62,033 nucleotides of DNA from Alistipes sp. Its GTDB lineage: Bacteria > Bacteroidota > Bacteroidia > Bacteroidales > Rikenellaceae. A program made the translations under genes and the position numbers. The stretch's first letter is position 1. Each line of letters starts with the position of its first letter. The stretch is from contig JAGBCY010000008.1 in assembly GCA_017937765.1 (NCBI GenBank), positions 1-62,033 of the forward strand. Direction: 5' to 3'. This document shows positions 43,067 to 47,222 of this stretch, in pieces. The notes under the pieces are model-generated. The model did no database searches, was not told the origin of the DNA, and was given only the letters and a program-made list of their open reading frames with translations.

Positions 43067-45502
43067 ATGGCAGAAATGACAAACACGCAGGAGAAGAGCT
43101 TCGAGGCTCGAAGCAACAAATTCACGCTCCACGACATACTTCAACTCATCCTCTCGAACTGGTATTGGTTCGTAGTGTCGATGATCCTATGCGGCGGCAT
43201 CGCCTTCATCTATCTGCACCGCACAGCCCCCATATACCAGCGCACGGCCACGGTCCTTGTCAAGGACTCACGTAAGGGCTCGGGCACGGAGGTCACAGCC
43301 TTCAACGACCTTCTCGGCGGTATGGGACGTCGCTCGGTGGATAACGAGGTGCACATCTTCCAGTCGCGCCGACTTATGGAGCAGGTGGTCAAGAAGTACG
43401 ACCTCACAACACGCTACACCACGCAGGGCCGCATCCGCACTACGGATATGTACGGCCGCGCTCCTATGCTCGTGAAGTTCCTGACGGCATCACCCTCGGA
43501 GGTGGGCTCGTTCCTCTATAACATCGATGACGACGGCACCATAACCCTGAGCGACTTTACCGACGAGCAGGGCCCCACGGCCGACGATAAGTATAGTATC
43601 AAGCTCAAGGCTGGCGATACGGTGACTACGCCGCTCGGCAGCATTGTGATGGTTGCCACGCCCTACCTCGAGCGATATCGCGACCGCGAGATTAAGGTCA
43701 CAAAGATGCCCCTTAATGAGGTCACTGAGTCGTACCGCAACCGCCTGAAGTGCGAGATTGCCGACAAGCAGGCTTCGGTCATCGCCATCAGTATGGCCGA
43801 CGAGGTACCGTTGCGTGCCGAGAATGTTATCAACGGCATCATCGACGCCTATAACGTTGACGCCATCGAGGATAAGCAGGCAATATCGAACCTCACCGAG
43901 GAGTTCATCAACGAGCGACTCATATCGCTTGGCGAGGAGCTCAACCTTGCCGATAGCGACATCGCCAACTTCAAGCAGGAGAACCGCCTCTACAGCCCCG
44001 AGAACGAGGCTAAGCTGAGTGCCGAGGAGATCAAGCGTCTGAAGCAGGATGCCTTGACAATGGAGGCAAACCGCGAGATGGCGCAGTATATCCTCTCCTA
44101 CATTCAGGATAGCGATGAGCCCAACGCTCTGATCCCCGCAGCTACGGTTACGATGAGTGGTGCATCGACAGCCCTTGCCGCACAGATAGAGCTATACAAC
44201 AAGAACGTACTCCTCTACCAGCGACTTGTGTCGTCATCATCGACGAGCAACCCCATCGTCATCGACCTTGAGGAGCAGATTCGCAACGTGCGTGGCGTTA
44301 TCGAGACATCGCTCATATCGCACATCGACGGCCTCGACCTCCAGATCGAACAGATAAACCGCCAGCAGAACATCGCCGACTCCGAGATGCAGAGTTCTCC
44401 CACGAAGGAGATGGAGTTGCTCTCGAAGGCACGCCAGCAGAAGGTTAAGGAGGAGCTATACATCTACCTCCTCACGAAGCTCGAGGAGAACGCCCTAACG
44501 GGAGCTACGGCCGAGAGCAACGCCCGCGTCATCGACCTCGCATATGGTAGTAACCGCCCGATAAGCCCCAAAACATCGCTTATATATCTCGTGGCCATAG
44601 TTATGGGTCTGGCAATACCCTTTGCAATCCTATACCTCCGCGAGGTGCTCAACACGAGTGTGCGCTCGCGTCGCGACCTTGAGGAGGCTCTCACGATACC
44701 CTTCCTCGGCGACATACCGCAGTACGAGGGCCGCACCGACCAGGGTATCGTCGTTAGGGATGATGGTCGCGATGCTGTTTCGGAGTCGTTCAGAATGATA
44801 CGCACGAACCTTAGCTTTATGTCGGTAGACACGACCGTGAAGGTGCTGATGTTCACCTCGTCGATACCCCACAGTGGTAAAACGTTCGTATCGCTCAACC
44901 TCGCAGCTACGCTCGCCGCCTCGGGCAAGCGCACCCTTGTTGTCGACTTTGACCTCCGTCGCCGCACGCTGTCAAAGACCCTCGGACATCGCAACGACCG
45001 CCGAGGCCTCACGAGCTTCCTCACCGATAAGATTAGCTCGTTGGACGACATCATCCAGAAGAGCGAGATTGACGAGAACCTCGACTTTATCTTCGCAGGT
45101 CCTCAGCCACCCAACCCCGCCGAAATGCTTATGTCGCAGCGCGTCGACCAGCTCTTTAGCGAGCTTCGCAGCCGCTACGACTATATCATCATCGACAGCG
45201 TACCGGCAATGGCCGTGGCCGATGCTATCATCATCGACCGCCTTGTCGACCTCACGGTATATATCGTGCGTCAGGGCAACCTCGACCGTCGCCACCTGCC
45301 CGACATCGAGCAGCTTTACACCGAGAAGAAGTTCCACAATATGAGTATCGTGCTCAATGGCGTGACACACAGCAAACGTTCGTATGGCTACGGCTATGGC
45401 TACGGTTATGGCTATGGCTACGGTTATTACAGCGATGGCGAGAACGAGACGCCGTGGAAGCGTCGCTGGCGCAAGTTTAGGCACCTATTTAAGAAGCAGT
45501 AA
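43067..45502 (+). CDS. Wzc-like chain-length determinant / bacterial tyrosine kinase
   Basis: An 811-residue inner-membrane co-polymerase and BY-kinase. The N-terminal Wzz domain has TM1 near residues 30-52 (WYWFVVSMILCGGIAFIYL), a periplasmic coiled-coil part and TM2 near 503-523. The cytoplasmic ATPase has Walker A SSIPHSGKTFVSLNLAAT (near 600), A' LVVDFDLRRR and B YIIIDSVPAM. The tyrosine-rich tail near 770-790 consists of repeated Gly-Tyr dipeptides (GYGYGYGYGYGYGYGYYSD), the autophosphorylation cluster. It controls polymer length and export with Wza. No glycosyltransferase or polymerase gene is adjacent. Confidence 0.93.
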   Translation: MAEMTNTQEKSFEARSNKFTLHDILQLILSNWYWFVVSMILCGGIAFIYLHRTAPIYQRTATVLVKDSRKGSGTEVTAFNDLLGGMGRRSVDNEVHIFQSRRLMEQVVKKYDLTTRYTTQGRIRTTDMYGRAPMLVKFLTASPSEVGSFLYNIDDDGTITLSDFTDEQGPTADDKYSIKLKAGDTVTTPLGSIVMVATPYLERYRDREIKVTKMPLNEVTESYRNRLKCEIADKQASVIAISMADEVPLRAENVINGIIDAYNVDAIEDKQAISNLTEEFINERLISLGEELNLADSDIANFKQENRLYSPENEAKLSAEEIKRLKQDALTMEANREMAQYILSYIQDSDEPNALIPAATVTMSGASTALAAQIELYNKNVLLYQRLVSSSSTSNPIVIDLEEQIRNVRGVIETSLISHIDGLDLQIEQINRQQNIADSEMQSSPTKEMELLSKARQQKVKEELYIYLLTKLEENALTGATAESNARVIDLAYGSNRPISPKTSLIYLVAIVMGLAIPFAILYLREVLNTSVRSRRDLEEALTIPFLGDIPQYEGRTDQGIVVRDDGRDAVSESFRMIRTNLSFMSVDTTVKVLMFTSSIPHSGKTFVSLNLAATLAASGKRTLVVDFDLRRRTLSKTLGHRNDRRGLTSFLTDKISSLDDIIQKSEIDENLDFIFAGPQPPNPAEMLMSQRVDQLFSELRSRYDYIIIDSVPAMAVADAIIIDRLVDLTVYIVRQGNLDRRHLPDIEQLYTEKKFHNMSIVLNGVTHSKRSYGYGYGYGYGYGYGYYSDGENETPWKRRWRKFRHLFKKQ
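45385..45428 (+). repeat. Gly-Tyr coding microsatellite-like repeat
   Basis: A 6-bp GGCTAC/GGCTAT/GGTTAT unit repeated about seven times near the wzc 3' end. Being 6 bp long, unit gain or loss would keep the frame while changing the number of phosphorylatable tyrosines. Confidence 0.8.
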
Positions 45503-45941: not shown

Positions 45942-46199
45942 ATGAAGAGAATTTCTATGCTATGCTGTATGGTGGCAATGTCCATTATGCTATTCGCTTG
46001 CGGAGGTAACGCCGATGCAATCAGGGATAAGGCCGAGTACTATGTGATGGAGGGATACAAGGCAGGCCTTGTGGGTGACTACGATAGGATCGAGCGACTG
46101 ATGCTTGAGGAGCAGATCTATGTAAATTCGCTTGATGCCGACGAGCAGGAGATCTATCAGCAGGCCAGCATTGAGGCTGCAAGCGACCTGCTTTACTAA
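45942..46199 (+). CDS. Small lipoprotein, function unknown
   Basis: An 85-residue lipoprotein: MKRISMLCCMVAMSIMLFACGGNAD with lipobox LFAC. The mature part of about 65 residues looks helical and acidic (RDKAEYYVMEGYKAGLVGDYDRIERLMLEEQ). No family was recognised. It follows the HAD gene by 38 bp and is the last gene before a strong terminator, so it may belong to the Wza/Wzc transcript. Confidence 0.65.
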   Translation: MKRISMLCCMVAMSIMLFACGGNADAIRDKAEYYVMEGYKAGLVGDYDRIERLMLEEQIYVNSLDADEQEIYQQASIEAASDLLY

Positions 46200-46217: not shown

Positions 46218-46280
46218 CACTTGAATGAGATTGGGGAGTTTCGGGAGTTAAGTTCTCGAAACTCCCCAATTATTTAAGTG
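46218..46280. terminator. Long bidirectional terminator-like hairpin
   Basis: ATTGGGGAGTTTCG (46230-46243) and CGAAACTCCCCAAT (46257-46270) are perfect complements. The outer CACTTGAAT (46218-46226) pairs with ATTTAAGTG (46272-46280) with one G-T pair. An alternative inner stem GGGAGTT/AACTCCC also exists. It ends the plus-strand export operon and probably the opposing transglycosylase transcript. Confidence 0.85.
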
Positions 46281-46333
46281 CCTTTTAACGCAGAAAATGG
46301 CGGACATATCAAGCACACCATAATTTCTTATTT

Positions 46334-46352
46334 AATTAGTAGTGAGTAGTGA
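46334..46352. repeat. Intergenic A+T-rich repeat, copy 2
   Basis: Exact copy of 4979-4997 (AATTAGTAGTGAGTAGTGA). Confidence 0.5.
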
Positions 46353-46378
46353 AATTGTATATTCTGGATAGCATACCC

Positions 46379-46507
46379 AAATTTCTTGTCAAAAGTCGTG
46401 AGATGTGGTGCCAAAGGAAAGAGCCTCGGATGGGACATACTCGGCGTATTTCCCATTCGGGACTCTGAGGTTTGGTGCCGCAGATTGCGGCTTATCACAA
46501 GAAATTT
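46379..46507 (+). ncRNA. Candidate structured RNA: gapless 129-nt hairpin
   Basis: Two 62-nt arms face each other around a 5-nt loop (TCGGC, 46441-46445) without any gap. Counting pairs in plus-strand RNA: 44 Watson-Crick, 8 G-U and 10 mismatches, the outermost 11 (AAATTTCTTGT against ACAAGAAATTT) perfect. Of nine arm differences that are transitions, eight give G-U on the plus strand and one on the minus strand, suggesting selection on a plus-strand RNA. The right end covers the stop codon of the opposing transglycosylase gene. No clear promoter was found, so an inverted-duplication relic remains possible. Confidence 0.55.
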
Positions 46508-47222
46508 AAGAGAGGGTGGCAATCTTGCAATACTGCTGGTACTTGCGCATCACCTCGTCAACATAGTGTAGAGTCTGACCACTACCGGTAAACTTACCGC
46601 TCTGAACTATCTCGAGCTCATAATAGGCAGGATCGGACTTTAGCTTTAAATAACGACTCACATCCTCCCACGAATTAGGGTTGGCACCCTCCGATCGCGC
46701 CAAGCGACGCGCATCGAGAACGTGGCCAATACCAGCATTATAGCTGGCAAGGATGATGCTCAGGCGATCCTGCTCGGGCGTCGAGCGCGGGATGCGTAGC
46801 ATAGTGTCGAGTTCGGCGAGAAGCATACCCGCGAGACGGATATTGGTCTCCGTGTCGTCGATATCCTCAACCGGAACATTGAAGTGTCGAGCCACAATGG
46901 GACGTATCTGCATAATACCCAGAGCACCTTGACTCGATTTAAGGTCCTCAATGAAGCGTGACTCGCTATATGCAATAGCACTCATAAGTCGCCAGTCCAG
47001 CCCCTCCTCGCCACCGACCCTGCGCATTATAGGGTCGAAGCGCGAGATTACACACGGCAGCTCGGCCATCTCGGCCATCTGCTCGGAATTAGATGGTGTC
47101 ATAGCCTCAGCCATAGCCTCCTCAACGGTAGGCGGGATAAGCGGCTGAGCCTGACCCTGTGATGATTCATACACCGCCAACAGCGCGGTAGAAACAACCA
47201 CAAACGAAATTCTCTTTAACAT
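46506..47222 (-). CDS. Lytic transglycosylase (SLT / MltF-like)
   Basis: A 238-residue exported peptidoglycan lytic transglycosylase. The N-terminus (MLKRISFVVVSTALLAVYES) is a signal sequence. The SLT domain runs from about residue 60 to 200: catalytic Glu87 in SAIAYSESRF, then QGALGIMQIRPIVARHF, DTETNIRLAGMLL and LASYNAGIGHVLDA. It cleaves the MurNAc-GlcNAc bond for wall turnover. Unlike MltF it lacks the solute-binding N-terminal domain. It lies 45 bp after the putative porin gene, and its stop overlaps the 129-nt hairpin. Confidence 0.9.
   Translation of the reverse strand: MLKRISFVVVSTALLAVYESSQGQAQPLIPPTVEEAMAEAMTPSNSEQMAEMAELPCVISRFDPIMRRVGGEEGLDWRLMSAIAYSESRFIEDLKSSQGALGIMQIRPIVARHFNVPVEDIDDTETNIRLAGMLLAELDTMLRIPRSTPEQDRLSIILASYNAGIGHVLDARRLARSEGANPNSWEDVSRYLKLKSDPAYYELEIVQSGKFTGSGQTLHYVDEVMRKYQQYCKIATLS

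Follow-up and report, generated by a model that had tools for sequence, protein, structure and literature searches.

Hairpin repeats docked at gene stop codons in Alistipes, with pairing favoured on the strand antisense to the gene

A long hairpin overlaps the end of a lytic transglycosylase gene in Alistipes sp., and the question raised by this locus is whether the hairpin is an RNA antisense to that one gene, the remains of an inverted duplication, or a member of something more widespread. The hairpin lies in a stretch of 62,033 nucleotides, referred to here as the window, whose relevant features are collected in Table 1. A sequence-only reading had described two 62-nt arms around a TCGGC loop with 44 Watson-Crick pairs, 8 G-U pairs, and 10 mismatches, and the recount was exact: pairing base i with base 130-i across the element gives 44 Watson-Crick, 8 G-T, and 10 other combinations, one of which is A-C. 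The overlap with the stop codon of the opposing gene, claimed in the same reading, was also found, the end of the element falling on the TAA. The RNA folding energy is -68.1 kcal/mol (z -10.1) for the plus strand and -46.1 kcal/mol (z -5.8) for the minus strand, with none of 200 shuffles equally good in either case; DNA energies shrink the gap between the strands to 4.4 kcal/mol (-30.0 for plus and -25.6 for minus).

Table 1. Features of the hairpin locus (window coordinates).
Feature	Position	Strand	Basis
Hairpin element	46379..46507	+	folding, arm-to-arm pairing, covariance-model match
5' arm of the hairpin, 62 nt	46379..46440	+	pairing
Loop TCGGC	46441..46445	+	pairing
3' arm of the hairpin, 62 nt, ending on the stop codon of the gene	46446..46507	+	pairing
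TAA stop of the docked gene, common to the element end	46506..46508	-	stop offset -2 in the window copy
Docked gene, SLT-domain lytic transglycosylase, 238 aa	46506..47222	-	ORF and domain match
Gene-sense tail after the element, GGGTATGCTATCCAGAA	46362..46378	-	resembles the GGTGTGCTATCC tail behind several other copies in the same genome
AGCACACCATAATTTCTT, looks like the remnant of a second tail and element start	46312..46329	+	by eye

That no known RNA family was recognised in the sequence-only reading agrees with the Rfam scan, in which the whole window had no match at gathering thresholds; at E up to 10, the region 46250-46600 gave a single chance-level hit (snR40, E 5.4). The covariance model described below matches the hairpin at 46380-46506 with 114 bits on the plus strand and 64.3 bits on the minus strand, and this is its sole match in the window on both strands at E up to 10, with none at the apparent remnant. 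Two other features of the surroundings were observed. A plain inverted repeat at 46230-46277 (TTGGGGAGTTTCG..CGAAACTCCCCAA, then T-rich) follows an 85-aa ORF at 45942-46199 and is perhaps the terminator of that ORF. Further upstream, the plus-strand gene at 43067-45502 encodes a Wzc-like chain-length/tyrosine-kinase protein with, by eye, a C-terminal run of YG repeats.

The window hairpin is one copy of a repeat family with a unit of about 127 nt. A nucleotide search with the hairpin gave 38 matches in its own genome and matches in 32 of 61 genomes of the genus, its own included. From 244 full-length copies we drew 82 representatives and aligned 70 of them, leaving out by hand 12 that appeared to be mosaics or duplicates or gave a better reading on the other strand, an omission that may flatter the pairing; a covariance model was built from these 70 non-redundant copies. 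With this model, the own genome (G000 in locus labels) yields 134 hits on both strands, corresponding to at least 83 places in at least 62 clusters, a lower bound given that 150 of 409 candidates were scored. Forty-three of the clusters are single copies and 19 are tandems, arranged head to tail in every case (19/19). Thus, the single antisense RNA locus envisaged in the sequence-only reading gives way to a dispersed family. The search of related genomes that it had called for finds the element in 42 of the 61 genus genomes (Alistipes/Rikenellaceae MAGs, own one counted); at most 57 candidates were scored per genome, so that copy numbers are lower bounds. Among 198 genomes drawn across the order, the model matches four, own one counted, and the named genomes among the exact core matches listed are all Alistipes sp. 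or Rikenellaceae MAGs, mostly from the ruminant gut. Weak hits (E up to 0.01) were obtained in six of eight genomes of a second Bacteroidales genus of another family, several of them with the outer boxes TTGTCAGAA .. TTATCACAA in common; 10 of the 16 hits examined (of 19) lie at -7..+9 of the stop codon of an ORF of at least 80 aa, on the same antisense side. A phage or plasmid origin was considered and rejected, as blastn against phages and plasmids gave no match and viral contigs contained no exact match to the core.

The arms of the family members covary. In the 70-sequence alignment, whose consensus ends are AATTTnTTG..CAAnAAATT, 94.3% of the cells are paired, a percentage flattered by the derivation of the tested structure from the same 70 sequences. 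This derivation does not explain the double changes: 34 of 43 pairs have changed on both sides, and double-change cells number 660, compared with 203 after shuffling and no more than 133 when the partners are slid. At one apical pair, half of the sequences (35) have A-U and the other half (35) G-C. At the apex, the inner hairpin has the form GGG-x-GTAC..GTAC-x-CCC or the ATAC/GTAT variant, with a T-rich flank in the gene sense. Covariation, the point that the original description of the locus had proposed to check, is very strong by these counts.

Pairing is also asymmetric between the strands. The plus strand is the more stable one in 81 of 87 full-length copies (those of 106 that span model positions 8-120). 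Over 43 pairs in 70 copies, the plus strand has 320 G-U and 35 A-C combinations, and G-U outnumber A-C in 68 of the 70 sequences, with the reverse in none. When the pairs are derived from the minus strand instead, the plus strand is still favoured, with a G-U to A-C ratio of 188:46. The strand-specific G-U pairing noticed in the window copy is therefore family-wide, and equal substitution of both strands among homologues, which had been named as an outcome that would speak against it, is not what the 320:35 ratio shows. Unpaired columns have a G+T fraction of 0.489, no excess, which speaks against plain mutation bias, and one pair is G-U in 52 of the 70 copies and A-C or A-U in none; on these two grounds, we rejected mutational strand bias as the source of the G-U pairs. 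A decaying inverted duplication was rejected on the covariation together with the strand bias. These observations support the plus strand as the strand selected to fold, and at docked copies this is the strand antisense to the gene.

The pairing bias of the plus strand is what would be expected if each copy made a structured plus-strand RNA antisense to the 3' end of its gene, as first proposed for this locus. The larger strand gap of the window copy with RNA than with DNA energies and a tandem G-A/A-G that 31 of the 70 copies have on their plus strand point the same way. However, the sequences before the plus-strand 5' end vary between genomes and even between identical copies, and no sigma-70-like site was found on the plus strand at the hairpin by a scan that does not cover Bacteroidota promoters. 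We consider this proposal very improbable.

The position of the copies relative to genes is more regular than mere tolerance of gene ends would imply. In the gene sense, the element typically starts as T|AATTTCTTGTGATAAG, such that the last T of the gene and the AA of the element form a TAA stop codon. Within the own genome, 56 of 62 clusters lie within -7..+9 of a stop codon, 44 of them at exactly -1 (41 TAA and 3 TAG); on the other side of the element, there are 13 stops, scattered. The other six clusters have offsets of -16, -12, -12, and +12, or lie at -89 of a 105-aa ORF (one cluster) or behind a tRNA-Gly fragment (one cluster). Among 142 clusters, a long-ORF stop is found within -120..+20 on the antisense side in 119, with 68 at -1, and the 30 clusters with a stop on the other side show no peak. 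In 198 deduplicated clusters, a long-ORF stop lies within -20..+14 in 167 and at exactly -1 in 105, with no marked preference in the bases before the docked T. The window copy has an offset of -2, most copies -1. The stop-codon overlap is thus a rule of the family and not a peculiarity of the transglycosylase gene.

This regularity bears on the alternative that the family is a MITE of an unrecognised DDE transposon, in which the arms would be overgrown terminal inverted repeats, dispersal would be parasitic, and gene 3' ends would be merely tolerant of insertion. Such repeats are over-represented behind genes (PMC3049150), and the Alistipes copies are dispersed and palindromic, with identical copies behind different genes; the ends (T|AATT...AATT|A), like the AATT shared at tandem junctions, would be compatible with a short duplication of the target. 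However, tolerance does not put 44 of 62 clusters at exactly the same base and in the same orientation, the arms of a transposase substrate should keep their sequence and here covary base by base, and a preference for wobbles on one strand is not expected. A dispersed MITE family with target duplications had been named at the outset as a finding that would speak against a strand-specific structured element; the dispersal was found, and a clean target duplication was not seen. We regard a MITE as unlikely.

Docked genes are core genes of many kinds. In a sample of ten, NCBIfam matches over the cut-off were serine hydroxymethyltransferase, AspRS, glycine C-acetyltransferase, DeoC, GAPDH, and ribosomal protein L17, and best matches below the cut-off were ribonucleotide reductase, an M3-type peptidase, an OxyR-like regulator, and Dpp7; Pfam adds a Glu/Gln-type tRNA synthetase, an Rnf-Nqr subunit, a glycine dehydrogenase domain, GH57, and others. 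Among the rows listed, docked genes have the same C-termini as orthologues that are truly undocked, a comparison in which the 'undocked' labels come from a sequence profile that misses diverged copies, several such rows visibly carrying the element. This agreement in the rows listed argues for docking at the ancestral stop codon, and insertion by gene truncation was rejected for this reason. For the window gene, the model finds a copy adjoining the stop codon in 4 of 30 orthologous loci (own, G025, G038, and G051), where the 30 are the best among 58 genomes that gave a match, and three more loci (G044, G059, and G017) begin alike by eye.

Copies were also observed behind tRNA sequences. In G041 (L063:1523-1707), a tandem pair, one member of which is partial, starts three bases behind a predicted tRNA-Gly gene, which implies that docking is not strictly tied to translation. 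In the own genome (L050:1569-1822), tandem elements lie behind a duplicated tRNA-Gly 3' fragment. Some arrays contain half elements that break off near the hairpin apex, each then followed by a tail and the next element (L087:1558-1849 in G022 and L035:1693-1839 in G000).

Within a genome, copies at different places can be nearly or fully identical. Five places in G059 carry copies that do not differ at all over 128 nt. Three of these copies (L267-L269) dock at -1, another forms the distal member of a tandem, and the last (L266) follows the stop codon of an 89-aa ORF at a distance of 16 nt. By eye, the copies at L285 and L266 seem docked on an internal TAA within the first ~14 nt of an older copy, a piece of which, ~14 nt long, is thus left between the stop codon and the element. 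Among 47 G059 copies, single linkage gives groups of 13, 7, and 6 copies more than 95% alike, located behind different genes and before different tails. One copy (L273) has the interior of the group of 13 and other outer arms on both sides. Of six G059 groups identical outside the loop, four differ in the loop; at L068, L069, L079, L271, L277, L279, L280, L076, and L270, loops differ and the 121-123 other bases are identical.

The sites themselves are shared between genomes. Of docked genes, 41 were sampled in G000 and 51 in G059, and 15 of the G000 genes recur in the G059 sample, where about 1.3 would be expected by chance, by our estimate assuming some 1,600 genes. In 14 of these 15 cases for G000 and 15 of 15 for G059, the copy at the shared site resembles its counterpart less than it does the best copy elsewhere in the same genome. 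Comparisons with G041 go in the same direction and are weaker (5/7 and 7/7 against G000; 4/6 and 5/6 against G059). Shared sites with unlike copies mean that the sites tend to persist and the sequences at them to be exchanged, whether through conversion of old sites or through renewed occupation of favoured gene ends. No same-species pair of an empty and an occupied site was seen, and gene conversion among old sites would therefore explain much. Empty landing pads were rejected for one tail type of G059, the element preceding the tail motif at all 23 places shown of 25, the other two being near contig ends. In the own genome, the tail motif GGTGTGCTRTCC, from which the window tail differs by one mismatch, was uninformative, with 32 matches against 30 for the reversed control at one mismatch allowed. 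Short-period repeats occur behind many elements, ACTCACT/ACTAATT in G000 (also in the window at 46337-46366) and TTTAGGGAG-like or ACCACAGAG in G059.

As for the function of the repeats in the host, formation or protection of gene 3' ends appears the most likely one. The element would cap the gene and serve as its 3' end, with the inner hairpin terminating transcription or blocking 3' exonucleases, and the cap would stand in for the plain terminator-like stems of undocked orthologues. In the case of the window gene, undocked orthologues mostly have, by eye, a stem and a T-run within ~100 nt of the stop codon. The 10 nt after the inner stem contain on average 5.0 T in the gene sense, compared with 3.9 in the plus sense, which is a modest signal of a terminator. 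A terminator scan found nothing at the window hairpin; the scan also misses the plain stem nearby, at 46230-46277.

Such a role could belong to a purely cis-acting 3'-UTR element, a terminator or stabiliser that is old, immobile, and homogenised by ordinary gene conversion. The docking of the same genes in different species is consistent with this possibility, as are the ordinary terminator-like stems seen by eye in orthologues of the window gene that lack the element, the lack of an empty site at the 23 G059 tail-motif places shown of 25, and the mosaic copy L273, with its group interior between other outer arms. The strand bias is a difficulty. Selection on mRNA structure would favour wobbles in the gene sense, and the opposite is seen, which counts against a role at the mRNA level; the conserved wobbles are not on the mRNA strand, where they become A-C mismatches (for example, in 52 of 70 copies at one pair), and a fold conserved on the antisense strand is awkward for any purely mRNA-level function. 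Presence of the element among congeners is also patchy. We find an exclusively cis-acting element improbable.

The reading we prefer, to which we give an even chance of being right, places the window hairpin in a dispersed family of structured repeats of ~127 nt, which occur singly or as short head-to-tail tandems, cap Rikenellaceae genes at their 3' ends, and are exchanged via the folded antisense strand. We infer that the cap, perhaps a terminator, owes its spread or its homogenisation to a process reading the folded antisense strand. By recognising this strand, as single-stranded DNA or as RNA, the process would exchange copies between gene ends or insert them there anew. A process of this kind would explain the selection for pairing on that strand, the covarying arms and drifting loop, and the homogenisation within genomes at sites fixed between species.

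Candidate machinery for such a process was sought in the genus genomes. Y1_Tnp was found in 0 of 61, and the integron integrase TIGR02249 in 0 of 61 over the cut-off, with sub-threshold hits in 61 of 61 and also in 14 of 14 controls. Reverse transcriptases are present in 21 of the 61 genomes, yet in only 5 of the 13 genomes with at least 57 model matches, and thus do not track the abundance of the element. G059, one of these 13 genomes, a MAG 94% complete and rich in identical copies, has no RVT_1 match; the completeness of the own MAG is 85.7%. Since MAGs are incomplete, absence from one genome means little, whereas absence from 61 is informative. Retro-copying primed at the ribosome was rejected, given the absence of an RVT_1 match in G059 and the pair of copies behind a tRNA gene.

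A stronger reading, which we put forward tentatively as possible, is that the family represents a mobile class that homes to gene 3' ends, copying itself as a folded single strand, antisense to the host gene, exactly onto stop codons and in one case directly behind a tRNA gene, and replacing the host terminator without RAYT, integron, or retron machinery. If this were true, the element would be a self-spreading terminator that becomes the 3' end of the host gene. The data also suggest that a gene can keep the same kind of 3'-end device across species although the sequence of the device changes.

That palindromes lie dispersed behind genes has been familiar for decades. What is new is that copies lie behind genes in one orientation, mostly with one-base docking, and the family joins this docking at most sites to a clearly preferred folded strand and to copies that are identical although different genes precede them. 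The searched genomes lack Y1 transposases and integron integrases, and reverse transcriptases do not follow the element. This combination makes the targeting, the mobilising protein, and the 3'-end effect directly testable. We found no stop-docked family of this kind in the open-licence literature.

The nearest relatives in behaviour are the REP/BIME palindromes with RAYT (GTAG and CGTC families), which are likewise dispersed close behind genes. The terminus of a GTAG REP is reported often to supply a TAG stop codon, and for two species the majority of REPs located between convergent genes are placed <20 bp away from the 3' ends (PMC3733652). In contrast to REPs, which measure 20-40 bp, the Alistipes element is ~127 nt long and has a single orientation to the gene; it is not a 20-40 bp palindrome with a GTAG or CGTC tag, and Y1 transposase was found in none of the 61 genomes. 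Repeats of the ERIC, NEMIS, and RUP type have a TA target duplication. The nearest in size and shape is ERIC (RU-1), described as a dispersed intergenic repeat of 127 bp with a predicted single long stem-loop (PMC2267715, PMC2759123). The Alistipes element differs from ERIC, NEMIS, RUP, and other MITE-like repeats in its exact one-orientation docking at stop codons, its strand-specific wobble, its base-by-base covariation, and the lack of an Rfam match.

In the choice of one folded strand, the integron attC site is the nearest. The attC site follows the cassette gene, so that the folded strand is the antisense strand. Such sites (for example, VCR) are palindromes of 57-142 nt that are recombined as the folded bottom strand (PMC2727003). 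However, the GTT/AAC R boxes were not seen in the Alistipes element, whose consensus ends are AATTTnTTGTCAG..CTTATCACAAnAAATT instead of the RYYYAAC / GTTRRRY end boxes, the copies are dispersed behind core genes and not arrayed, and an IntI integrase was found over the cut-off in 0 of 61 genomes. Two candidate structured RNAs of Bacteroidetes, HMP2_4205 (132 bp, predicted as a terminator) and HMP_4078 (109 bp, not so predicted), are also long palindromes, and they are reported near TPR or phage domains and not as docked at stop codons (PMC8040213); it is by description only that they are set apart from the Alistipes element. We file the element as a variant of the dispersed 3'-end palindromes, distinct from REP/RAYT and attC by the features that define those two systems.
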